Source: Deltaproteobacteria bacterium
GTDB taxonomy: Bacteria; Myxococcota; Myxococcia; Myxococcales; 40CM-4-68-19
Assembly: GCA_005879535.1 (NCBI GenBank)
Contig: VBKI01000066.1
Coordinates: 93,483-157,482 of the forward strand
Length of the DNA: 64,000 bases
Direction of reading: 5' to 3'
Below are positions 591 through 59,118 of this stretch, piece by piece (within the stretch, counting starts at the first letter, position 1; each line of letters begins with the position of its first letter). The notes beneath the pieces are model-generated. The model did no database searches, was not told the origin of the DNA, and saw only the letters and a list, made by a program, of their open reading frames with translations. A program made the position numbers and the translations under genes.

Positions 591-1790
591 TCAGGCTAGT
601 GGCCCGACCAGCAGGACGTCGATCTCGATTCCGTCCTCGACGCGCCCCTCGCCGGCCGCGATCACCGCGACCGCATTGGCGCCCGACCAGGAGGCGATCT
701 GCATGCTGCTCTGCTGCCCACCTGGTTCGAATACGAGCTGCGATCCATCCGCCGTGACCCGACCGCGGGGAAAGAAGGTGAGTCCCTTGACGCGGGAGAG
801 CGTGCCGCGCAGGAGCGCCTTCGCGCGCGGGCGCTCCGGATTCCGATCGCCGGCGAGGAGACGGATCGCGAGGCGCGCGAACAGCTCGAACCCCAGCGTC
901 GCCGCCGCGGGATTCCCCGGCACTCCGAACACCAGGCGTCCCTGAGAAGCGGTGCCGAACAGCACCGGCTTTCCGGGGCGGATGGCGACGGTGTGGAAGA
1001 TCAGCTCGCCGCCGAGCTGCTCCAGCGCATCCTGCGCGTGATCGTGATCGCCCACCGACGCCCCGCCGGTGGTCAGGAGGATGTCCGCCGGCGCGTCGCG
1101 CAATCTTTGCGCGATGCTCTCCACGGAATCGGGCGCGATGCCTAGGCGAAGCACGTCCGCGCCGGCCTCGCGGCAGAGCGCCGCCAGGGTCAGGCTGTTG
1201 GTTTCGACGATCTGCCCGGGTCCGGGCTGCTGGCCGAGCGGCACCAACTCGCTGCCGGTGCACAACACGGCAACGCGCGGCCGGCGATGTGCGCGGACGG
1301 AGGCGACGCCGCAAGCGGCGGCGAGCGCGAGATCCGCCGCATCCAGAACGCGCCCAGCAGCAAGCGCTTCGATGCCCGCGGTGAGCTCTTCGCCGCGTCG
1401 GCGGATGTGCTGGCCCGCCTTCGGCGCCTGCTGGACGCGGACGTCGAGACCTTCGCGGACGCAGTGCTCCTGCATGACGACGCAATCGGCGCCCGGCGGA
1501 AGCGGAGCGCCGGTGAAGATACGCGCCGCCTCGCGTGGCTTCAGCGGACGGTCCCAGGGCCGATCGCCCGCGGCGATTTCGCCTGCGACGCACAGCGGGC
1601 TGCCGGAATCCGCCGCGCGGAGCGCGTAGCCGTCCATCATCGAGATGTCGGTCGACGGCTGGTCACGGAGCGCCTGGACGCCGGCCGCCAGGACGCGTCC
1701 GTAGGCCTCCGTAAGTGGAACCTCTTCGGGAGGCAGCGGGCGTGCGCGGGCGCGCACGGCGGCGAGCGCATCGGAGAGCGGTGTGATCAT
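591..1790 (-). CDS. moeA: Molybdopterin molybdenumtransferase MoeA
   Basis: MoeA inserts molybdate into adenylylated molybdopterin to finish the molybdenum cofactor in the cytoplasm. The 399-residue product has the family landmarks in order: DISMMDGYA at about residues 48-56, FTGAPLPPGAD at about 92-102, and the MoCF-type TTGGASVGDHD motif at about 240-250, then the C-terminal MoeA domain IV. The ATG at 1790 is preferred over an in-frame GTG at 1829 because the latter lies inside the tRNA terminator hairpin. No other molybdenum cofactor gene is present in the window, so the enzyme it serves is not visible. Expression may depend on read-through from the tRNA or on a promoter not recognised. 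Confidence 0.95.
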   Translation of the reverse strand: MITPLSDALAAVRARARPLPPEEVPLTEAYGRVLAAGVQALRDQPSTDISMMDGYALRAADSGSPLCVAGEIAAGDRPWDRPLKPREAARIFTGAPLPPGADCVVMQEHCVREGLDVRVQQAPKAGQHIRRRGEELTAGIEALAAGRVLDAADLALAAACGVASVRAHRRPRVAVLCTGSELVPLGQQPGPGQIVETNSLTLAALCREAGADVLRLGIAPDSVESIAQRLRDAPADILLTTGGASVGDHDHAQDALEQLGGELIFHTVAIRPGKPVLFGTASQGRLVFGVPGNPAAATLGFELFARLAIRLLAGDRNPERPRAKALLRGTLSRVKGLTFFPRGRVTADGSQLVFEPGGQQSSMQIASWSGANAVAVIAAGEGRVEDGIEIDVLLVGPLA

Positions 1791-1806
1791 CCTCTGGACA
1801 CCCGCG

Positions 1807-1843
1807 AAAAACAGAAGAGCCCCGGCCACTTGCCCGAGGCTCT
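1807..1843 (-). terminator. Rho-independent terminator after tRNA-Leu
   Basis: On the minus strand a hairpin with arms AGAGCC (1838-1843) and GGCTCT (1816-1821), extended inward by CGG/CCG after one mismatch, is followed by a run of five T residues (1811-1807). It lies 57 bases downstream of the tRNA 3' end and is the clearest intrinsic terminator in the window. Confidence 0.8.
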
Positions 1844-1900
1844 ACCGTCCAGTGGCGGGCGCAGACCGTCGCGCTCAGGGGTCCGCCGCCGGGGCGTCGG

Positions 1901-1987
1901 TGGTGCCGAAGAGAGGACTCGAACCTCCACGGGGTTGCCCCCACCAGACCCTGAATCTGGCGTGTCTGCCAATTCCACCACTTCGGC
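1901..1987 (-). tRNA. tRNA-Leu (anticodon CAG)
   Basis: The minus strand reads as an 87-base class II tRNA with CCA encoded. The acceptor stem pairs GCCGAAG with CTTCGGC, the D arm contains GGAATTGGCAGAC, the anticodon stem-loop is CCAGA-TTCAGGG-TCTGG with anticodon CAG (complement of 1951-1953), a long variable arm GGGGGCAACCCC follows, and the T arm contains GGTTCGAGTCC. The long variable arm and CAG anticodon identify leucine, reading CUG, the dominant Leu codon in this GC-rich genome. Confidence 0.97.
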
Positions 1988-2009
1988 TCGACGCCAGAAA
2001 AGCCGTGGC

Positions 2010-2038
2010 GATCTAACGAACTGCAAGATTCAAGTCAA
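2010..2038 (-). promoter_or_regulatory. Sigma-70 type promoter for tRNA-Leu
   Basis: The minus strand has TTGACT (2038-2033), a 17-base spacer and TAGATC (2015-2010), which places the start of transcription about 16 bases before the mature tRNA 5' end. Spacing and the good -35 box make this a credible housekeeping promoter. Confidence 0.65.
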
Positions 2039-2119
2039 GGCGCAGCCCTCGGTCAGCGCACGCATGGACAACTGCCCCCGACCTGTGGTCGCATGTCGTA
2101 CCTGTATGCAAGGAGGAGC

Positions 2120-2500
2120 GTGAAAAGGCAGGGTCGAAGGACTGGGCATCGCGTCCTCATCGTGGATGACGAAGAGGGCTTCCGAGACGGCGTTGCCGAT
2201 CTGCTCGGCATGGAGGGCTACGAGGTCTCCGTCGCTCGCGATGCCGTGGAAGCCGTTCGCGTGTTGCCCGAGTTCCGGCCGGAAGTGATCCTGCTCGACC
2301 TGCGCATGCCTCATCTCGACGGCGAGGGTTTCCTCCGCGGCATGGGTGGACTGCCCGCGAGCAAGCGCGTTCCGGTCGTGCTGATCTCCGCGAAGGAGGA
2401 TCTGCAGCAGATTGCGCTCCGCACCGGCGCGGCGGGATACCTGAGCAAGCCCTTCGAGGCGCCCCAGCTTCTCTCGCTGCTGGAAAAAGTCCTCTCCTGA
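2120..2500 (+). CDS. Single-domain response regulator (receiver only)
   Basis: The 126-residue product is one CheY-like receiver domain with no output domain. The acidic pair D16-D17 (IVDDEE), the phospho-acceptor D60 (ILLDLRMP), S90 in VVLISAK and the invariant K110 in LSKPFEAP are all present. The GTG at 2120 is favoured by an AGGAGG just upstream (2111-2116); an ATG at 2093 would add nine residues. It ends head-on with the next gene: its TGA (2498-2500) and the neighbour's stop (2501-2503) form TGATCA. No cognate kinase is adjacent; the sensor kinase at 4941 is the nearest candidate, which is only inference from distance. Confidence 0.9.
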   Translation: MKRQGRRTGHRVLIVDDEEGFRDGVADLLGMEGYEVSVARDAVEAVRVLPEFRPEVILLDLRMPHLDGEGFLRGMGGLPASKRVPVVLISAKEDLQQIALRTGAAGYLSKPFEAPQLLSLLEKVLS

Positions 2501-3481
2501 TCAGACGGGCTTCTTCTCGATTCCGTTCTCGGTCCGGCGGTGCATCGCAGGCACCGGAGTGCCGGATGCCGGCGTGGCAACGCCTTCCGCCTCTTCGCCG
2601 CCGATGGGCTCTCCCGCTTCGATTGCCTCCGGCGACGCGCCCTCGAGCGGCAGAGACGTTTGCGCCGCCTGCGCGCCGGCCTCCTCGCGCGCGCGGTCGG
2701 CCGAAGCCGGGCCCGTCGCCTTGGGCCGTTCCTTCTGCATGGGCGGGGGCAGCGGGATCCCCGACTGCCAGAGCTTGCGCTCGGCCTGCGCGAGCCGCTC
2801 CTTCACCAGCTCGAGCTCGCCTTTCGTCACGAGGTAGACGCGGTTGTTCGTCTCGGCGCGGCCCTTGTGCTTGCGGACCTCGTCGCGCAGCTCCTGCTCG
2901 CGTTTCTTCGCCTCGCGTGCGTGCTTCTCGGCCGCAATAACCTGCCGGTCGAGCTCGCTCTTCGCCGCCTCGAGCTGCTCGTGCAGCGGCTGCACGTCGG
3001 CAGCAGGGGGCGTGGGCGCCGCCACCGTCGGCGCGTGATCGGTCAGCTCGCGAATCCGACCCTGCGCTCGATCGAGCTCGCCCCGCAGCTGCGACTCGGC
3101 GGCCTTGACCCTCTCGAGCTCACGCCGCGCCTGCGCCTCGGCAGCGTGCGCGTCCTCGGTCAGCCTTCGGGCGTGCGCCAGATCCTCCTCGAGCTCCGCC
3201 TCGCGGGCGCCCCGCGGCTGCGACTTGCCGGAGCGGCCTTCCTGCGCCTTGCGGCGCGTCTCCGCCAGCTTCTCCCGCGTCTCCGCAAGTTGCCCGGAGC
3301 GCGTCTTCGACTCTTCCTGGGCGCGCCGCAACTCGGCGCGCGCCGCCTCGGTCTCCTTGTGCGCCTGCCCGGCGTCCTCGCGCAGGGCCTTCACCGCGGC
3401 GGCAGCGGACTGGCCCTGCAGGAAGAACACCACGGCGAGCACGACCGCGACGACGGCGATGACGAACGCGAGGCCGACCAT
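2501..3481 (-). CDS. Membrane-anchored coiled-coil protein, function unknown
   Basis: The 326-residue protein starts with one transmembrane segment (about residues 3-22, rich in Val/Ala/Leu) and continues as a long charged heptad region (about 30-235, rich in Glu, Ala, Arg and Gln) broken by a Pro/Ala patch near 150-162. The tail, from about 240, is low-complexity Pro/Ala/Glu. This is the layout of a structural or scaffolding protein with one membrane anchor; I do not recognise a family. Its stop abuts the stop of the response regulator gene, so the two converge with no space. Confidence 0.75.
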   Translation of the reverse strand: MVGLAFVIAVVAVVLAVVFFLQGQSAAAAVKALREDAGQAHKETEAARAELRRAQEESKTRSGQLAETREKLAETRRKAQEGRSGKSQPRGAREAELEEDLAHARRLTEDAHAAEAQARRELERVKAAESQLRGELDRAQGRIRELTDHAPTVAAPTPPAADVQPLHEQLEAAKSELDRQVIAAEKHAREAKKREQELRDEVRKHKGRAETNNRVYLVTKGELELVKERLAQAERKLWQSGIPLPPPMQKERPKATGPASADRAREEAGAQAAQTSLPLEGASPEAIEAGEPIGGEEAEGVATPASGTPVPAMHRRTENGIEKKPV

Positions 3482-50286: not shown

Positions 50287-53200
50287 TCAAGCGAGCTGGA
50301 TGAGCGCCGCCTGATCCAGCTCCAGCCGGGCGCCGTCGAGCGCGGCCGCCGCTTCTTCGTAGAGTTTCGTTTCCGCCTCGAGGACGCGGCGTGCCTCCGC
50401 TTCGCCGACCTTGCTCTGGGCGAGCCAGCGCAGCAGCCTTCGCGACGCGGCTTCCTTCTCCGCCTGGATTCCTCTTTTCGCCTCCTCGACCGTTGTCCGC
50501 AGACGCCGCTGCGCCTCTTCCTGCGCCACGCGAAGGGCGCCTTCCACCGCCTGCGTGAAAGCGCCCGGAGGCCCTCCTTCGGGCGCCGGCACCGGCTCGA
50601 CCCTGGAAGAATCGAGCTGCGCGCCGAGCGCATCGTCGACCCGGGCTCCGCCATGGCCATCCAGCCGCACGGGCACGCGCAGCAAGGGCTCGTCGATGTG
50701 TCGCGCCGCGCGCCGCGACGGTACGCGCGCTCCCTGCGCGAGATCGGCGGGCTCCGGCAAAGCGACGAGAAACCGCGCGTCGAGGGCAGCGCCGGACAAT
50801 CCGCGCAGGTGTGCGCGCGCCACGGTGGCCCGGCCGAGCTCGCCATCACGGACCCAGGAGAAAAGCGCCTCGACCAGGGGGTGTCCCGTGGCGAACGAGT
50901 CGTATTCTTCGTGCGTCACCGCGACGTCGCGCCGGAACGAGCCCAACACGGTCCGGTCGTCCGAGAGATCGAAGCCGGCCAATGCGTCGACCTTCAGCTC
51001 CGGACCGACGTGGAACGAGACCTGCCCCGGCAGCACGTCGACCTCCACGTCGACCGCCAGGCCTACCCGCTTCGCCGCCTCGATGGTCACGGCTTCCAGG
51101 CGCGACTCGAGCAGCGTCGCAACCGTCCGCAGCCCGGCTTCCGCGTCTGCGGTCGGGGAAAGCCGGGCGCCGATCCGCTGGCCGCCGCGCTCTGCCAGCG
51201 CGCGGACAGAGGCGAAGTCGCAACTGCGCAGATCGAGCAGCGGATCGTAAGCCCGCGCCACTTCCGCGCGCGCCGCCGACACCCGCGCGGCGAGCTTCCG
51301 CGTCATCTCCTCCCAGCGTTCGGCGTCGTCGGTGGAAGCGAGCGCAAGCAGCGACGGCTCGACGCCTTCGAGGACGGGGTCGAGGCCGCCGACCGGCTCG
51401 GTGAACACGCCGACGCCCGCGTCGAGCACGTCGAGCACGCGCGCCGCAAGCGTTCCCTCGGGGTGGAAGGCGTGGATGCGCACCTCCCGCGACTGGCCGA
51501 TGCGATCGATGCGCCCGATGCGCTGCTCGATGGCCGCGGGGCTCCAGGCGAGATCGTAGTTCACCAGCACGTGGCAGTGCTGGAAGTTGCGCCCTTCCCC
51601 GCCCAGCTCGGTGGAGAGGAGCACGCGCGGGCCGTCCGGATCGCGGAAGCGCGCAACCATCTTGTCGCGGTCCGCCGGCGAGAGGTCGCCGACGTAGCCC
51701 AAAGCCTCGATGTGCCGGCGCGCGAGCGCCGCTCGCAGGTACTCGATGGTCTCGCGCGGCTCGGCGAACACCAGCACCTTCTCGGAAGGGCCCAGCTCCG
51801 CGAGGAGGTCCTGGAACGCCTCCAGCTTCGAGTCCTTCGCCAGAGCGAGCGCGCGCTGCGCCAGCTTCTTCTCCCCCGCCGCCGAGAGACCCGCAGCGAG
51901 CGCCGGAGGCGAGCTGCCCATCCGCCGCAACAGCGAGGCGAGCACGGCGCCCGAAGGGAGCTTCGCGTGCGACAGGGCGCGGCGGACGTCATGCTCCAGC
52001 TTGCGCTCTTCCTCCGTCAGGTGGACGGGGATCCGGGTCAGGCGCCGTGGGGTGAACCCGCCCACGACCGCCCGCCGGTTGCGCAACAGGCGCGCCGAGA
52101 GGCCGTAGCTCTCGGCGAGATGCGCGAGCAGTGGCTTGCCGCGCAGCTCCCGCAGCGCGGGATCGTCCGGAAACAGCGCGGCGATGCGCTCCGCCGCGGC
52201 GGCATCGCCGCCAAGCAGCGCGCGTACTTCCGCGGAGAGATCGCCCTGCCGCGCCAGCCGTGCGCGCAGCTCCTGCTCGGTTGCTGCTGGAGCGGGATCC
52301 ACGAGGCGCAACAGCGCGTGGTATTCCGCCGGGTCGAGCTGCAGAGGCGTGGCGGTCAACAGCAGCAGGCCCCAGGTGCTGCGCGCCAGAGCCTGCGCCA
52401 CCTCGTACGCCTTGGCGCCGCGGAGGTGGTGCGCTTCGTCGACGATCACCAGGTCCCACCCGGCGCCTGCCGCGGCTTTCGTCTCCTCGCGGCTGCGCGA
52501 GAGCCATTCCAGCGAGGTGATCACCAGCGGATGACGCCCCCAAGGGGAATCATCGTCGTCCGGGGCTTCCGCTTCCGCCGCCTCGCGGTCGTCCTTCGCC
52601 CGGTCGGGATCCATCAGCGTGAACAGCAGGTTGAATTTGTGGAACAGCTCCGCCAGCCACTGCACCGTGAGGTGGCTCGGCGCGACCACCAGGCAGCGCT
52701 TGACGAGTCCGGCGTGCAGCAATCCCGAAAGGACGAGGCCGGCCTCGATGGTCTTTCCCAGCCCGACCTCGTCGGCGAGAACGAATCGCGGCTGCGGCGC
52801 CGACAGCACCTGGTGCGCTACGCTCACCTGGTGCGGCTTGACGTAGACGCGCGAGGCGAAGAGCGCGCCGAGCGCGTCGGCACGGCGCTCGAGATCGAGG
52901 CGCACCGTCTCCGAGCGAAGGTGGAAGTCTTCCGGAGCCCCCCAGCGGCCGGAAGCGAGTTGTTCCGCCGGCCCTTCGCGGGGAACCGGCGCGCGCAGGT
53001 CGGCCTCGCTCCGGATCTGCGGCTTCTTGCCGGGAATGTCGACCGTATACCGGTAGAGGTCGTCGGCAGGCCCGGGCAGCGTGCGAAGCACGCGCGCGGC
53101 GGAGCCGTCGGCGAACAGGACCGGCGATTCCGGCGCGAATCGGTAACGCGCCAGCGCGATGTCGCGCGACGACAGCATCACCGGGCCGCCGGGCCGGCCG

Positions 53201-53313
53201 GGAAACTCGGCGGAGAGGCGCGGCGGGTCGTCGCTCACCGCGAGGATGTGCCCGACGCCCCATCCCCCTTGTGCGCGGTGGATGACCTTCATCCCTTTGA
53301 GGAACCGGGGCAC
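50287..53313 (-). CDS. SNF2-family helicase, RapA/HepA-like
   Basis: The 1008-residue protein has a two-lobe SNF2 motor: Walker A ADEVGLGKTIEAG (K187), DEAH box at about 292-295, TATPLQL, and in the second lobe LLSTELGGEGRNFQHC and IEQRIGRIDRIGQ. The N-terminal 115 residues and the C-terminal 400 are unlike chromatin remodellers and resemble RapA, which recycles RNA polymerase. The GTG at 53313 has AAGG six bases upstream and is 25 bases from the divergent chrA start; an upstream frame to 53532 would overlap chrA and is rejected. The C-terminal half is rich in Arg/Ala/Glu helices. Confidence 0.9.
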   Translation of the reverse strand: MPRFLKGMKVIHRAQGGWGVGHILAVSDDPPRLSAEFPGRPGGPVMLSSRDIALARYRFAPESPVLFADGSAARVLRTLPGPADDLYRYTVDIPGKKPQIRSEADLRAPVPREGPAEQLASGRWGAPEDFHLRSETVRLDLERRADALGALFASRVYVKPHQVSVAHQVLSAPQPRFVLADEVGLGKTIEAGLVLSGLLHAGLVKRCLVVAPSHLTVQWLAELFHKFNLLFTLMDPDRAKDDREAAEAEAPDDDDSPWGRHPLVITSLEWLSRSREETKAAAGAGWDLVIVDEAHHLRGAKAYEVAQALARSTWGLLLLTATPLQLDPAEYHALLRLVDPAPAATEQELRARLARQGDLSAEVRALLGGDAAAAERIAALFPDDPALRELRGKPLLAHLAESYGLSARLLRNRRAVVGGFTPRRLTRIPVHLTEEERKLEHDVRRALSHAKLPSGAVLASLLRRMGSSPPALAAGLSAAGEKKLAQRALALAKDSKLEAFQDLLAELGPSEKVLVFAEPRETIEYLRAALARRHIEALGYVGDLSPADRDKMVARFRDPDGPRVLLSTELGGEGRNFQHCHVLVNYDLAWSPAAIEQRIGRIDRIGQSREVRIHAFHPEGTLAARVLDVLDAGVGVFTEPVGGLDPVLEGVEPSLLALASTDDAERWEEMTRKLAARVSAARAEVARAYDPLLDLRSCDFASVRALAERGGQRIGARLSPTADAEAGLRTVATLLESRLEAVTIEAAKRVGLAVDVEVDVLPGQVSFHVGPELKVDALAGFDLSDDRTVLGSFRRDVAVTHEEYDSFATGHPLVEALFSWVRDGELGRATVARAHLRGLSGAALDARFLVALPEPADLAQGARVPSRRAARHIDEPLLRVPVRLDGHGGARVDDALGAQLDSSRVEPVPAPEGGPPGAFTQAVEGALRVAQEEAQRRLRTTVEEAKRGIQAEKEAASRRLLRWLAQSKVGEAEARRVLEAETKLYEEAAAALDGARLELDQAALIQLA

Positions 53314-53338
53314 CGCGGACCTTCTATACTGGAAGGAC

Positions 53339-54631
53339 ATGGACGGCCACGCCATCGAGTCCCCGGCCGCGGCAGCGCGCCTGCGACCGCCGCTGCCGGA
53401 CTTCTTTCGCGCCTCCCTGTTCCTCGGCCTGGTGGGATTCGGCGGCGGGCTCTCGGTGCTCGCCAACATCCATGCGCTGGCGGTGAAGAAAAGGCGCTGG
53501 CTCACGGAGCGCGAGTTCACCAACACCATCACCGTCGCACAGATGCTTCCCGGCGGCGCCGCTGCGAATGCAATGGCCTACGCGGGCCTGCGATTCGGCG
53601 GACTCAAGGGCGCATTCCTCGGCTACCTCGGCTTCGTGTTGCCCGGGTGGATCGCCGTGATGGCGCTCGCGTTCCTGTACGTGCATTTCGGCACGGCGCC
53701 CAACGTGGCGACCTTGCTCGGCGGTTTCAACGCCGCGGTGATCGGGATCATCGGCGCCATCACCCTGAAGATGGCCAAGAGCGCCGTCTCGCGCCTCTGG
53801 CAGATGGGCGTGGCCGCGGGCGCGCTCCTCTTCTCCGTCCTCGGCGACGCGCCTCCCGGCGAAGTGGCATTGGTCGCGATCGGCGTCGGGCTCGCGGTCG
53901 ATCTCGGCACCAAGCGCGCCCGCCTGTTCGCGATGGAACGTCGCAAGATGCGCGAGCGGCGCGAAGCTCCGGTCGTCCTGCCCGAGGAAGGCGCTACGCT
54001 CTCCACCCAGAAATCGGAGCCTCGGAAGCCGCCGACGGAAATGAACGTCGCCAGCTGGACGGTCTTCGTGGTGATGCTCGGGATCGCGCTGCACGCCCCG
54101 GGCGTGGACGCGGAGCTGTTGCGGATCGCGTTCTCGTTCTTTCGCACCGGTCTCGGCGCGTACGGCGGCGGTTTCGCCATCGTGCCGCACCTCAAGCAGG
54201 TGGTCGAACGCGAGCACTGGATCACCGAGCGACAGTTCGCCGACGCCGTGGCCATCGGCAAGCTCACACCCGGACCGGTGCTGCTGCTGGCGACGTTCAT
54301 CGGCTATCTGCGCCATGGCTGGCTCGGCGCCGTGGTGGCGACGCTCGGCATCTTCAGCGCTCCCTTCATCCTGGTGGCGTTCGCCGGCACCTGGCTGGAC
54401 CGGATCCGCTCCCGGCGTCCGGTGCGGGCGGCGCTGCGCGGGCTCACGCCGGCCGTCCTCGGCCTGATGGCGGCGGCGGTGATCTCGCTCGGCGACACCA
54501 TCAACGGAGAGGGCGAGATCGCGATTGCGGTGGCGGTGGCGCTGACGCTCAGCCGCTTCGAGATCAACCCCGCGATCATGCTCGCGCTGGGCGGCGTGGC
54601 GCGGTTCGCCTTCCGCTTCGCGGGACTATAA
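53339..54631 (+). CDS. chrA: Chromate transporter (CHR family, two-domain)
   Basis: The 430-residue membrane protein has two homologous CHR domains, the first with GFGGGLSVLANIHAL and TITVAQMLPGG, the second with GAYGGGFAIVPHLKQ and AIGKLTPGPV. It is the long-chain form that exports chromate. About 10-12 helices are visible. A cytoplasmic charged loop of about 60 residues links the halves. It is divergent from the helicase and 9 bases before rpiA. Chromate is the family substrate; sulfate or another oxyanion is possible. Confidence 0.93.
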   Translation: MDGHAIESPAAAARLRPPLPDFFRASLFLGLVGFGGGLSVLANIHALAVKKRRWLTEREFTNTITVAQMLPGGAAANAMAYAGLRFGGLKGAFLGYLGFVLPGWIAVMALAFLYVHFGTAPNVATLLGGFNAAVIGIIGAITLKMAKSAVSRLWQMGVAAGALLFSVLGDAPPGEVALVAIGVGLAVDLGTKRARLFAMERRKMRERREAPVVLPEEGATLSTQKSEPRKPPTEMNVASWTVFVVMLGIALHAPGVDAELLRIAFSFFRTGLGAYGGGFAIVPHLKQVVEREHWITERQFADAVAIGKLTPGPVLLLATFIGYLRHGWLGAVVATLGIFSAPFILVAFAGTWLDRIRSRRPVRAALRGLTPAVLGLMAAAVISLGDTINGEGEIAIAVAVALTLSRFEINPAIMLALGGVARFAFRFAGL

Positions 54632-54640
54632 AGGAGCCGC

Positions 54641-55300
54641 ATGGACCTCGATGCGCAGCGCAGGGCAGCCGGAGAGCGCGCGGCCCAGTTCGTCCAGGAC
54701 GGGATGGTCATCGGGTACGGGACCGGACGGGGAGCGACGGCGGCGCTCGAGGCGCTGGTGAAGCGCAAGGTCCGCGTGCGCGGCGTGCCCACGTCGGAAA
54801 AGACGGTCGCGATCTGCAAGCGCCTGGGCCTCGAGATGGTCGACTTCGACCATCACCCGCGCCTCGACCTGGTCATCGACGGCGCCGACGAGGTGGATCC
54901 GCGCGGCCAGCTCCTGAAGGGTGGCGGCGGCGCGCACGTGCGGGAGAAGCTGGTGGCCCTGGCGTCCGCGCGGCGGATCGTCGTCGTCGAGGAAGCGAAG
55001 CTGGTTCCCCATCTCGGCGCCACGCGCGGGGTGCCCATCGAGGTGGTCGCCTTCGGATGGCGCGGAACCCTCGAGCGGATTGCCGCGGTCCTGCCTGGAG
55101 CGACCCACCGGGAAGGTCCTCCGACCGACAACGGCGGCGTCGTCGTCGATGCGCCCTTGCCGGCCGGCGCAAATCTCGAGCGGATCGATCGCGCCCTCAA
55201 GGGAATCGCCGGCGTCGTCGATCACGGATTGTTTCTCGATCTCTCGCCCACCGTCGTCGTGGGCGGCCCGTCCGGCGTGCGCGTGATCAGCGGTGGCTGA
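54641..55300 (+). CDS. rpiA: Ribose-5-phosphate isomerase A
   Basis: RpiA interconverts ribulose and ribose 5-phosphate, completing the pentose phosphate set encoded 5-15 kb away. The 219-residue protein has GTGRGATA near 27-34, IDGADE at 79-84, the KGGGGAHVREK active-site loop with E102 and K93, and the C-terminal block DHGLFLDLSP. An AAGGAG precedes the ATG. Its last 14 bases overlap the convergent HMA-like gene. Confidence 0.96.
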   Translation: MDLDAQRRAAGERAAQFVQDGMVIGYGTGRGATAALEALVKRKVRVRGVPTSEKTVAICKRLGLEMVDFDHHPRLDLVIDGADEVDPRGQLLKGGGGAHVREKLVALASARRIVVVEEAKLVPHLGATRGVPIEVVAFGWRGTLERIAAVLPGATHREGPPTDNGGVVVDAPLPAGANLERIDRALKGIAGVVDHGLFLDLSPTVVVGGPSGVRVISGG

Positions 55301-55556
55301 CGTAGCCGGCGCCGGAGATCGCTTTCTGGATCACGGCGGCATTTGCGGAAGCGTCGTCGAAGACGACGGTCAGCGTCTTGCTGCCCAGATCGGACGAGAC
55401 CCGGATGACCCCCCTGACCTGCTGCACCGCCGACTCCGTCTTGTACACGTCGCCCTTGCTGTGCCAGCCCTCCACTTTCAGGCTGAGCGACTGCTCGGCG
55501 GCCTGGGCGGCGAACGCAAGCGCGAGCGCGGACCAGAGGGGCTTCATGGCGCCCAT
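55287..55556 (-). CDS. Exported HMA-fold protein lacking the CxxC motif
   Basis: A 89-residue protein with a signal peptide (about 5-20, LWSALALAFAAQAA) and a heavy-metal-associated fold: SLSLKVEGWHSKGDVYKTESAVQQVRGV, IRVSSDLGSKTLTVVFDD, AVIQKAISGAGY. Where MerP-like chaperones have GMxCxxC, it has GWHSKGD, with no cysteine in the mature chain. Metal binding by that motif is therefore unlikely unless His, Asp or other residues serve. Start may be 55556 or 55547. It follows the ZIP-like gene by 32 bases and ends inside rpiA on the other strand. Confidence 0.8.
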   Translation of the reverse strand: MGAMKPLWSALALAFAAQAAEQSLSLKVEGWHSKGDVYKTESAVQQVRGVIRVSSDLGSKTLTVVFDDASANAAVIQKAISGAGYVSHR

Positions 55557-55588
55557 TGTAACTGCCCCGGTGGCGGTCGCGCGATCGA

Positions 55589-57124
55589 TCAGACGGCGCG
55601 CGGTCCGTGGCGCAAAGGGGCGAACCATCCGCGCACGCCCTGCGACCAGAGGGTCGCGATCGCGAGGCCCAGGAGGATCAAGCCGGCGGCGGCCCCGAAC
55701 GGCGACGATGCGACCTGCATCCCCAGGGAATCGCGGAGGCCGCGCATCGCCTGATCCGCCGCGGCCGGAGCAGCCGCCAGCGCGCCGGAGAATGACAGCA
55801 GCCAACCCGCGATCAGCGCTGCCCCGCTTTCGCCCGCCAGGATCGCAGGCCCCGCGACACGGCGGCCCTCCACGACCGCGCGTATGAAGCCGGTCCGGGT
55901 CAGCGGGCCGATCGCGAGCAGCGCGATCGCGATTCCTGGGTCCAACCCCTTGCGAACGAGCACGGCCGCGACGGCGGCCGCGCCGGCCTCGTCGAGCCGC
56001 GCCGCGAGGGCGACGATGGCAACGAGCGCAGCAGCGGGCACGAGGTTGCCGGGGAATGCCCGCATGCTCACCTCGAGGCCCGACGCGGCCATCAAGAGCG
56101 TGAGCAGCGCCGGGGCCCGCGCGCGCACCGCGGCCAGCATCTCGGCGCCGACGGGGCGGGCCGGCGCTTCCGAGCGGAAGGAGTGCGCCGCGGGCAGCGC
56201 AAGCAGGACGGTCAGAGCCGCCCATCCCATCGCGGCGGCAGGGCCGAGCAGGACCAGCAGGAGAAGGAAGGCGTCCCAGCGGAAGAAGCGCGTGCGCACG
56301 GCCAGCAGCGCCCCGGCGGCGCAGCCGACGAGGATCGCCGGAGCACAAGCGAGCGAGATCCCGCCGATGACGCGCAGCAGCTCGATCAAGGGAGGCGCCT
56401 CTTCGCGCAGGTGCATGACCGCCCCGAAGCCGGCAACCGCGAGCCCAGCGGCACAGGCAACGAGATCGAGGGCGCGTTCCAGGCGCGAACCGAAGCGCTG
56501 CGCCCGGATCTCGTCGGAGACCACGTGCAAGAGCGCGCCGGCGGTCACCGCAGTGGCCGTCTTGAGAAAAGCGCCCTCCTCGAACCCGGGCAGCGCGAAA
56601 CTGAGCAGCGCCCCTGCGATGCCCGCAGCGCCGACCAGGGCGGCGCGCAGAGTCGCGGCACGCGGCCCGCCCAGATCGAGGAACGGCAGCACGACCGCGG
56701 CGGTGAGCGGCGCATGGTGCGCGACGATGGCCGCCTCCAGATCGAGGTTCCCGCGCGGCTGCGCCAGCGCGGCGACGAGGGCCAACCCTTCCACGACCGA
56801 GTGGAAGATGAGCGCCGCAAAGCCGACCTCGGCGGAGACGCGCAGGCCGGAGAGCCCGCGGCCGCGCAAGAGCCCGGGGCCGAACGTTCGCGCCAGCCAC
56901 TCGAGGAGCCAGGGCAGCGCGAAGCCCGCCGCCATCCACAACAGGGCGACCAGTCCCTGCGAGGGAAGCACTTCCGGCAGGAGATGGAACGCGACGACGC
57001 CTGCCGCGGCCGCGAATGCGAACGTCCGGATGCGCTCGAGGATACCGGGGCGCCGCCGGGCGACCAGCGCGATGGCGCCTCCGAGGATCGCGGAAAACCC
57101 CGCGAGCATGGCGGCGTGGATCAT
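55589..57124 (-). CDS. Two-part membrane protein: ZIP-like half fused to a second permease-like half
   Basis: A 511-residue polytopic protein. Residues 1-225 follow the ZIP pattern: FHLLPEVL (H47, P50, E51), a TM4-like HSVVEGLAL (H108, E112), a degenerate TM5 HHAPLT (H136, H137), and HVVSDEI (H200, D204, E205). Residues 240-505 add about seven helices. That half has no ZIP motif; its GLDPGIAIALLAIGPLTR segment faintly recalls the ArsP/SO_0444-type permeases, which is uncertain. The ATG overlaps the regulator's stop as ATGA, so it is coupled to a Fur/Zur-type gene. A transport role for zinc or another divalent metal is likely; direction is unknown. Confidence 0.75.
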   Translation of the reverse strand: MIHAAMLAGFSAILGGAIALVARRRPGILERIRTFAFAAAAGVVAFHLLPEVLPSQGLVALLWMAAGFALPWLLEWLARTFGPGLLRGRGLSGLRVSAEVGFAALIFHSVVEGLALVAALAQPRGNLDLEAAIVAHHAPLTAAVVLPFLDLGGPRAATLRAALVGAAGIAGALLSFALPGFEEGAFLKTATAVTAGALLHVVSDEIRAQRFGSRLERALDLVACAAGLAVAGFGAVMHLREEAPPLIELLRVIGGISLACAPAILVGCAAGALLAVRTRFFRWDAFLLLLVLLGPAAAMGWAALTVLLALPAAHSFRSEAPARPVGAEMLAAVRARAPALLTLLMAASGLEVSMRAFPGNLVPAAALVAIVALAARLDEAGAAAVAAVLVRKGLDPGIAIALLAIGPLTRTGFIRAVVEGRRVAGPAILAGESGAALIAGWLLSFSGALAAAPAAADQAMRGLRDSLGMQVASSPFGAAAGLILLGLAIATLWSQGVRGWFAPLRHGPRAV

Positions 57125-57543
57125 CGCCGGCACCTCTCGCAGATGCCGCGCAGCTCGAGGACGTGCTCCTGCACGCGATACCGCGTGGCGCGGCGGACCT
57201 CGCCCAGCGCGCGCTCGAGGACGTCGGAATGGAATTCTCGCGCGCTGCCGCACTCGGTGCAGACGATGGCGTGATGGCAGCGCCGCTCCTTCTCCGAGCA
57301 GGGACGCACCGCGGAGGACCCGACGACGCGGTGGAGCAGGCCGAGCTCCAGCAGCGCGGTGAGATTCCGGTAGACGGAGACGCGGTCCATCCGGAAGCCG
57401 GCCCTGGCGAGAAGCTTCTGCAGCTCGCGCGGTCCGAGCGGACGCGATGACGCCTCGATCAGCTCGTGGAGCGCGTGCCGGGCGCGGGTGATGCGGCCGC
57501 CGCGGCTCCGCAGCGCCGCCTCGGCGCGAGTGGAAAAGCGCAC
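57121..57543 (-). CDS. Fur-family metalloregulator, probably Zur-like
   Basis: The 140-residue protein has the Fur winged-helix (SRGGRITRARHALHELI...DRVSVYRNLTALLELGLL) and the structural zinc cysteines C95/C98 (CTEC) and C135/C138 (CERC). The regulatory region includes H90-H91 and H105. GTG at 57543 gives a family-like N-terminus; a TTG at 57567 lies in the dyad at 57561-57579 and is rejected. It is coupled to the ZIP-like gene, which favours Zur over Fur, although metal choice cannot be read from sequence. Confidence 0.88.
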   Translation of the reverse strand: MRFSTRAEAALRSRGGRITRARHALHELIEASSRPLGPRELQKLLARAGFRMDRVSVYRNLTALLELGLLHRVVGSSAVRPCSEKERRCHHAIVCTECGSAREFHSDVLERALGEVRRATRYRVQEHVLELRGICERCRR

Positions 57544-57560
57544 GCCGGGGTCGTAGCACA

Positions 57561-57579
57561 GATGCAACCTTGTTGCATC
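57561..57579. promoter_or_regulatory. Perfect 19-bp dyad, candidate Zur/Fur operator
   Basis: GATGCAAC-CTT-GTTGCATC is a perfect inverted repeat with 8-bp arms and 3-bp spacer, 18 bases upstream of the regulator's GTG and overlapping the aminotransferase stop (57578-57580). Size and position suit a Fur-superfamily operator controlling the regulator and the ZIP-like gene. Confidence 0.65.
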
Positions 57580-58681
57580 AAGCGGAGAGGATTCGCGAGA
57601 GGATGACGATGCCCTGGCTGAAGATCGCCGGCTCCGGGAGCAGCGAAAGCACCAGGTGGGCGCCGGAAGGGAAGTCGAAGAAGTACCCGGGATGGACGAG
57701 GACGCCTGCCTCCAGCAGCGTCAGGCCCCATTCCTCTTCGCTCCGGGTGCGCGGTACGGAGAGGACCTCGCCCCAGCCGCCCTCGGAACGCAGCACGTCC
57801 CAGGGCGCTCGCGGCGGGCGCGCCGCTGCCAGCGATGCCCGGTTGATGGCGAGCCGCTCGCGGACCGCGGCCTGAAAGACGCCGCGCGAAGCGAGGATCG
57901 CGGGCGCGACGAGCTGCACCGGCGTGGGCACGGACAGGTAGGTGTCGGCGATCAGCTCCAGCCGGCGCACCGCCTCGTCCGCGCCGGGGCCGGCTGCCGC
58001 AATCCACCCCAGCTTGAGCTGCGGCAGGCCCGCGACCTTGGAGAGCCCCGAAAGCGAGAACGACAAGACGTCGCCATACCGGACGGCGCTTCGCGCCCGG
58101 CGCGAGTCATCGAAAGCCGGGAAGTCCGCGAAGACCTCGTCGGAGATCAGGGCGCAGCCGTGTTCGTTGCAGGCGGCGGCGAGCGCCGCGCGTTCCTCTT
58201 GCTTGAGATATGCGCCGGTGGGGTTTCCCGGACTGACGACGACGACGGCCCGGGTGCGGGCGGAGAACTGAAGCGCGGCGGTGTCGAGATGCCACTCGCC
58301 GTCCCAACGCATCCCGTACGGTACGGCGCGCACGCTTTCCAGGGCGGTCAGGTACCCGAACAGCGGATAGCTCGGCTCGGGCACCAGCACCTCGTCGCCG
58401 GCGTCGCAGAGCAGCTTGAACAACCACGCGTAGCCCTCGCTCGTGGAGGCGGTGAGGACCACGCGGTCCGGCGAAATCCCGTGGTAGGCGGCAACGGCCT
58501 CGCACGCCAAGGGCAGCCCGCGAGGGTGCGGTTCGTATGCAGGAGCGGCAGGGAGCGCGACGGCCAAAGCGGGGAGACCGGCTTGCGTGGGATTCGACAG
58601 CGTCAGATCGACGTAGGGCGTCTTGCGCCGGGCCAGCGCGCGCGCCAGCGCATTCTCCTGCTGCGTGAAATCGATCCTCAC
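57578..58681 (-). CDS. Pyridoxal-phosphate aminotransferase, class I/II
   Basis: The 367-residue cytoplasmic protein has NPTG (153-156) and the D181EVF pair, the Schiff-base lysine K215 in SLSGLSKVAGLPQLKLGW, and the C-terminal Arg region that binds carboxylates. The family covers aspartate, aromatic and other aminotransferases; the substrate is not clear. GTG at 58681 overlaps the DUF3052 stop as GTGA. Its 3' end contains half of the regulator's dyad. Confidence 0.92.
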   Translation of the reverse strand: MRIDFTQQENALARALARRKTPYVDLTLSNPTQAGLPALAVALPAAPAYEPHPRGLPLACEAVAAYHGISPDRVVLTASTSEGYAWLFKLLCDAGDEVLVPEPSYPLFGYLTALESVRAVPYGMRWDGEWHLDTAALQFSARTRAVVVVSPGNPTGAYLKQEERAALAAACNEHGCALISDEVFADFPAFDDSRRARSAVRYGDVLSFSLSGLSKVAGLPQLKLGWIAAAGPGADEAVRRLELIADTYLSVPTPVQLVAPAILASRGVFQAAVRERLAINRASLAAARPPRAPWDVLRSEGGWGEVLSVPRTRSEEEWGLTLLEAGVLVHPGYFFDFPSGAHLVLSLLPEPAIFSQGIVILSRILSA

Positions 58682-59118
58682 GCTTCCGGCGGCGCGCCCA
58701 GCTCCGCGCTGCGCGGGAGCGGCAGCCGGTCGCGGGGCTTCTCGACGAACCGCAGCGCCGACCAGATCTCGTCCACGGCGATGATCTTGTTGTCCGTCAG
58801 GCCGCCGGCGAGACCCACCGCGCGCACGAGCTGCTCGTCGAGATCGGTGAAGAACCCCGAGCTCTTCCTCGGCCAGGCGACCCAGAGCGCTCCGCGCGGC
58901 GCCAGGACGTGCTTCGCCTTGTGGAAGAGCTCACCGAGCACGGCGCGCGACGAGGAGAACACGACGATCACGTCGGCGAGGCTGACGATCTTCGTCGTCA
59001 CGCCGACGCCCTCCGGGAGCGGATCGAGGCGCTTGACGAAGCCGACGGGCGGATCGAGGATCAGCACCCGCCGGCCTTCGCGGATGCCGAGCTTCTCGGC
59101 TAGGCTGGTTTCGCCCAT
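58678..59118 (-). CDS. DUF3052-family protein
   Basis: The 146-residue soluble protein starts MGETSLAEKLGIREGRRVLILD and has VIVVFSSSRAVLGELFHKAKHVLAPRGALWVAWPRKSSG, matching the DUF3052 family of proteins with a small alpha/beta fold and no assigned reaction. AGGAGG precedes the ATG by six bases. It is the first gene of the minus-strand run through the aminotransferase and Zur/ZIP genes, and is divergent from hom. Confidence 0.88.
   Translation of the reverse strand: MGETSLAEKLGIREGRRVLILDPPVGFVKRLDPLPEGVGVTTKIVSLADVIVVFSSSRAVLGELFHKAKHVLAPRGALWVAWPRKSSGFFTDLDEQLVRAVGLAGGLTDNKIIAVDEIWSALRFVEKPRDRLPLPRSAELGAPPEA

Follow-up and report, generated by a model that had tools for sequence, protein, structure and literature searches.

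A Fur-family regulator and a ZIP::ArsP_1-type fusion transporter form a conserved gene pair with a predicted operator in a family of Myxococcota

Genes at the locus and extent of the unit

The window, a stretch of 64,000 nucleotides from the genome of a soil-dwelling myxobacterial lineage (a 5.16-Mb assembly in 118 contigs), carries on its minus strand genes for a Fur-family regulator, a two-part transporter of 511 residues and an exported HMA-fold protein free of cysteine. Their coordinates, strand and lengths agree with those given in a preliminary description of this DNA. The features considered here are as follows, from left to right.

55287-55547, minus strand: exported HMA-fold protein, 86 aa, no cysteine
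55589-57124, minus strand: ZIP::ArsP_1-type fusion transporter, 511 aa, ATG start at 57124
55589-56390, minus strand: C-half of the transporter, about residues 245-511, a reduced ArsP_1-type permease without the CSCG repeat
56419-57124, minus strand: ZIP half of the transporter, about residues 1-235, delimited by motif conservation and profile comparison
57121-57543, minus strand: Fur-family regulator, 140 aa, GTG start
57552-57581, minus strand: putative promoter elements around the dyad, from direct reading of the sequence
57561-57579, no strand: operator-like dyad, perfect over 19 bp, overlapping the stop codon of the aminotransferase gene
57578-58681, minus strand: class I/II aminotransferase (PF00155, E 3.7e-32), a syntenic neighbor judged to lie outside the unit

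The stop codon of the regulator gene (TGA, 57123-57121) overlaps the start codon of the transporter gene (ATG, 57124) in an ATGA, as read directly from the sequence, and the overlap noted earlier for these two genes is borne out. The HMA gene had been placed in the same minus-strand run; it is not coupled but lies 41 bp from the transporter gene and probably has its own promoter, since a TACAAT-like box found 7-9 bp before its ATG (7 bp in the source genome) is conserved in relatives.

A full-length transporter is present in 12 of the 12 family genomes searched, and outside the family it was found in 0 of the 48 other genomes of the order and in 0 of the 135 others of the class. The regulator gene adjoins the transporter gene, directly upstream, in 10 of the 12; in the two genomes of genus g4 (G009 and G011; L042 and L043) the fusion is kept with the regulator not adjacent. 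The core unit is this gene pair. Adjacency of the HMA gene is limited to the genus: it adjoins the unit in G000, G003, G004, G005 and G006, and partly, at a contig end, in G002, and orthologues with the same cysteine-free loop are located elsewhere in G007, G008 and G010. The neighborhood of the two-part protein is therefore conserved as far as the regulator is concerned, and only within the genus for the HMA protein.

The aminotransferase gene, the gene at 58681-59118, hom, thrC, rpiA and a chromate transporter gene form a conserved synteny around the unit. Membership of the first two in the operon was considered and rejected, because both are retained also where the regulator is absent (L042), and because in four genomes a divergent gene stands between aminotransferase and regulator; they are housekeeping synteny outside the unit. 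Thus, of the metal-homeostasis operon proposed earlier, a conserved metal-related pair built on a ZIP fusion stands, and its extent is smaller than claimed, with the HMA protein confined to the genus and the two upstream genes outside. The product of 58681-59118 had been labeled DUF3052; it is strongly conserved beside hom in the family, yet no Pfam family matches it at E <= 10, and the label is not upheld. The chromate transporter at 53159-54631 has two domains (TIGR00937, E 8e-63) and adjoins rpiA in the same conserved order.

A Zur-like regulator and its predicted operator

The regulator matches PF01475 (FUR) at E 2.9e-15. Two structural CxxC pairs, C95/C98 and C135/C138, are invariant in the aligned orthologues, which also have H71, C82, C89, H90, H91 and E103 in common. 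The sensory site of E. coli Zur consists of a His, a Cys, a hinge His and a Glu (PMC6103462), and H71, C82, either H90 or H91, and E103 align with the hinge His, Cys, His region and Glu of that protein, the exact His being uncertain by 1-3 columns. A Cys at the Zur sensory position is lacking in the genome's two further Fur-family proteins (L065 and L070). In a PDB search the best match was 2o03, M. tuberculosis FurB/Zur (E 3.8e-12), followed by Fur (9.2e-12) and PerR (1.6e-11), and no NCBIfam equivalog cut-off was reached, so that similarity searches alone do not decisively separate Zur from Fur or PerR here. Judged from its residues, the regulator is Zur-like, with all four positions of the Zur sensory site kept; it shares with E. 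coli Zur and M. tuberculosis FurB the Fur fold, the two structural CxxC pairs and the His/Cys/His/Glu sensory positions. In one relative, G004 (L038, about 1675), an in-frame stop interrupts the regulator gene after ...REFHSEAL, reflecting either an assembly error or a true truncation.

The perfect 19-bp dyad previously noticed before the regulator is located at 57561-57579 and reads GATGCAAC-AAG-GTTGCATC, an 8-3-8 shape. Its core, TGCAACNNNGTTGCA, has a single perfect copy in the 5.16-Mb genome. Perfect 8-3-8 dyads occur three times in the 64-kb window, and the shape alone is therefore near chance; the dyad is judged to be real because it is conserved in nine genomes and not because it is perfect. 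Indeed, the core GCAACnnnGTTGC is kept in nine out of nine readable regions upstream of the regulator, at a similar place and mostly as TTGATGCAACnnnGTTGCAT, around nine different 3-bp centers (AAG, ATG, GTT, AGT, TGC, GAT, TCT, ATC and GGT). A fixed core with a variable center is the pattern of a protein-bound dyad, and this one is a predicted operator.

The dyad is embraced by the hexamers TTGATG (57581-57576) and TGCTAC (57558-57553), 17 bp apart, and [T/C]GCTA[G/C] is retained shortly downstream of the dyad in most relatives. These promoter-like elements would yield a nearly leaderless transcript with the GTG start codon just past the -10 element, and binding between them should repress. 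A palindromic operator over the promoter and a regulator co-encoded with a metal importer (a predicted one here) are also features of known Zur systems, and autoregulation has been reported for zur genes that are part of an operon (PMC6103462). The 8-3-8 shape of GATGCAAC-N3-GTTGCATC differs from the Zur box shapes listed in the same paper, namely 9-1-9, 7-1-7 and 23 bp. Also unlike known Zur, the sole perfect site is that of its own operon, and a ZIP fusion takes the place of znuABC as the partner.

A wider regulon is not claimed for this dyad. One-mismatch sites in the source genome are little commoner than those of a reversed control, and the extra matches in relatives fall inside coding genes (L053 and L055-L059) or in a large ORF (L054). 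The single perfect site in the genome and the coding positions of the extra matches suggest a local autoregulator, not a global one. The ZnuA-family gene of the same genome has no matching dyad; a Zur, if it is one, would thus act without control of that gene through this motif.

Furthermore, in four relatives (G001, G002, G004 and G007) a GDT1/UPF0016 gene (PF01169, E about 1e-38) is inserted on the opposite strand between the aminotransferase and regulator genes, so that it and the regulator flank the same dyad, from which the GDT1 gene is 29-50 bp away. In the source genome and in G005 the GDT1 gene is elsewhere, with no dyad there.

The two halves of the transporter and its longer relatives

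Pfam Zip (PF02535) matches the transporter over residues 92-229 (E 9.4e-6, 25.5 bits), below the gathering cut-off of 35.1 bits; it was found in 11 of the 12 members, and in the relative G008 it passes the gathering score with 45.5 bits. An alignment of the 12 orthologues has the motifs H47xxPE51, H108xxxEG113, H136-H137-x-P139 and H200xxxDE205 invariant in this half, including residues H47, E51, H108, E112, H136, H137, H200, D204 and E205. When an AlphaFold model of the transporter (pLDDT 82, pTM 0.81) was searched with Foldseek, BbZIP came first with probability 1.00 and, for the best entries, a by-target TM-score of 0.63-0.68. No PDB sequence was matched by the transporter profile. By hhalign, the N-half aligns with stand-alone myxobacterial ZIPs (E 3e-11) and with the N-half of longer fusions (E 3.5e-16), and the controls ArsP_1, ChrA and GDT1 all stay below 1%. 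On the evidence of motifs and modeled fold the N-half is a ZIP domain, for which metal transport itself is predicted. It resembles the ZIP family (PF02535; ZupT, BbZIP) in fold and in the HxxxEG and HxxP signature residues, and differs from it in the score below the Pfam cut-off, in a TM5 that reads HHAPLTAAV, and in the second membrane domain fused to it.

For the C-half, no Pfam family matches, and Foldseek gave no meaningful match for it within the whole model; for this reason profile comparison was used. The C-half aligns by hhalign with the ArsP_1 halves (PF03773) of the longer fusions at a probability of 98.5% (E 3.8e-15), while the controls ZIP, ChrA and GDT1 are all under 1%. The alignment covers only positions 145-385 of the 406-position ArsP_1 template, which indicates loss of the CSCG-bearing repeat; the motif itself is absent, and the protein ends in a conserved GVRGWFAPLRH. 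Homology to ArsP_1/COG0701 permeases thus extends over repeat 2 and the C-terminal end. Compared with such permeases (SO_0444 Cu/Zn efflux, NF033936; BAS1632), the C-half is missing repeat 1 with CSCG, has no stand-alone Pfam match and stands behind a ZIP domain. Mean pairwise identity is 66% in the ZIP half vs 40% in the C-half. Probably, the latter is a retained structural or accessory half, since its first repeat has been lost and it evolves faster. In ArsP_1 homologues of another family, selenocysteine at an in-frame TGA was considered and rejected on the example that was read through, L213, where the TGA merely ends the gene.

This lineage is not alone in having such a fusion, as longer ZIP-like::ArsP_1 fusions of 615-690 aa (L094-L100, L134, L137, L139, L140 and L142) are found in several other myxobacterial families. 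They have the same domain order, and the 511-aa family matches them over the whole length in a profile comparison (probability 97, E 5.5e-11). They differ in having a full and clear ArsP_1 domain (E 1e-28 to 1e-43), with CSCG in most of those listed, and a different Fur subgroup nearby or none; some, of an Archangium type (a tentative label), have a His/Cys-rich C-terminal tail. Gene orders vary: COG0523 GTPase, Fur and ZIP::ArsP_1 in L139, a convergent COG0523 gene in L140, and MerC, fusion (1252-3201) and Fur in L094. The longer fusions match NF033936 (SO_0444 Cu/Zn efflux) at 186 bits, below its cut-off of 300, and from this resemblance the lineage may be one of exporters, which counts against zinc import. 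A plasmid search for fusion homologues gave one partial match only, to an SO_0444-family protein.

The HMA protein matches PF00403 at E 2.9e-7. It has the HMA fold and signal-like N-terminus of exported HMA/MerP-like proteins, and is unlike them in its loop, which reads GWHSKGD instead of the GWHCxxC of Cys-bearing paralogues: Ser and Asp replace both Cys, and the CxxC metal-binding loop is absent from the protein and its orthologues. Among exported HMA proteins of the order (loci L161-L185), GWHCxxC is the loop found, with one orthologous group of the present family carrying GWHSxGD, kept in eight genomes.

Proposed function and alternatives

Building on the observed architecture and homologies, the conservation of pair and dyad and the conserved sensory-site residues, we consider it somewhat better than an even bet that the unit is an autoregulated, zinc-repressed ZIP importer operon; the metal, the repression, the direction of transport and the roles of the C-half and the HMA protein are what we infer. 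With zinc at its Zur-type site, the regulator dimer would bind the dyad across the -35 element and spacer of its own promoter and keep the regulator and transporter genes alike from being transcribed. Under zinc shortage the repressor would leave the DNA, the transporter would be made by coupled translation through the ATGA, and its ZIP half would carry zinc into the cytoplasm. In some relatives the same dyad would also control the divergent GDT1-type cation transporter, and the cysteine-free exported HMA protein may serve as an optional accessory in the periplasm, expressed from a promoter of its own. Support for zinc comes from the Zur-type site and the ZIP domain, from the COG0523 context of L139 and L140, COG0523 being linked to zinc homeostasis in PMC2770081, and from the ArsP_1 permease BAS1632 of B. 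anthracis, which is Zur-regulated (PMC6336718).

Manganese or mixed divalent cation homeostasis is the best-surviving alternative, and an unlikely one. Here a Mur-like Fur would sense Mn(II) and, through a single operator, control a ZIP importer and, in relatives, a divergent GDT1 Mn/Ca antiporter. ZIPs can carry Mn2+, and a harder ion would be in keeping with the loss of cysteines from C-half and HMA protein alike. The dyad shared with PF01169 genes in four genomes speaks against zinc and for this reading, since GDT1/UPF0016 proteins are known for Mn2+/Ca2+ transport according to PMC7380456 and PMC8236900, the latter giving Mn2+ for the UPF0016 members characterized so far. However, Mn sensors do not usually have a cysteine such as C82 at the Zur sensory position, it would be odd for a single repressor to govern both an importer and a typical exporter, the COG0523 genes near the longer fusions favor zinc, and GDT1 is unlinked in the source genome's own subclade.

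We think it quite improbable that the unit is a heavy-metal efflux or resistance operon, whose fusion would export Cu, Zn or Cd like SO_0444/ArsP_1 proteins, with the HMA protein as a periplasmic shuttle. The homology of the C-half to ArsP_1, the NF033936 matches and His/Cys-rich tails of longer fusions and the nearness of fusions to MerC in Archangium-type genomes would fit, and in Nitratiruptor, Cd and Cu induce transporters of the SO_0444 family (PMC10092412). Yet the CSCG-bearing repeat is missing here, the HMA protein lacks metal-binding cysteines, and it is the importer-type ZIP half that is better conserved; moreover, with a Fur-type repressor sitting on the core promoter, abundant metal would silence the genes instead of inducing them. 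Ordinary drift, with no function in common between the Fur protein and an orphan membrane protein, can be largely set aside: the compared genomes are all of one family and 2 of the 12 are without the regulator, but pair and dyad are still present at about 45% protein identity, in genomes whose flanks differ by GDT1 insertion, HMA relocation and other downstream genes.

A bolder extension of the zinc importer reading is possible, though we hold it doubtful. In this extension, ZIP::ArsP_1 fusions would be an undescribed, phylum-wide class of Zur-linked transporters in Myxococcota, with importer and permease folds in one machine; the thiol ligands would have been stripped in the present family (the CSCG repeat lost, the HMA CxxC turned into SxxD), and a single-operon Zur with its own operator would also drive GDT1 in relatives. 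The preliminary description knew of no such system. In the papers searched, with most subscription journals outside, we found no account of this combination, operator or reduced fusion, nor any paper that deals with zinc regulators or their operators in Myxococcus. Each part is of a known kind, longer fusions exist in other families and an ArsP_1 permease is a known Zur target (PMC6336718); it is the combination of parts, the operator and the reduced form of the fusion that apparently lack a description in that literature.

If the zinc importer reading is true, the locus would offer a ready operator motif together with a regulator bearing a Zur-type site. In the fusion, a transporter fold normally found in importers would be joined to an unrelated one usually annotated as an exporter, and the role of ArsP_1/COG0701 permeases in zinc regulons, those of Bacillus included, would become testable through a single polypeptide.
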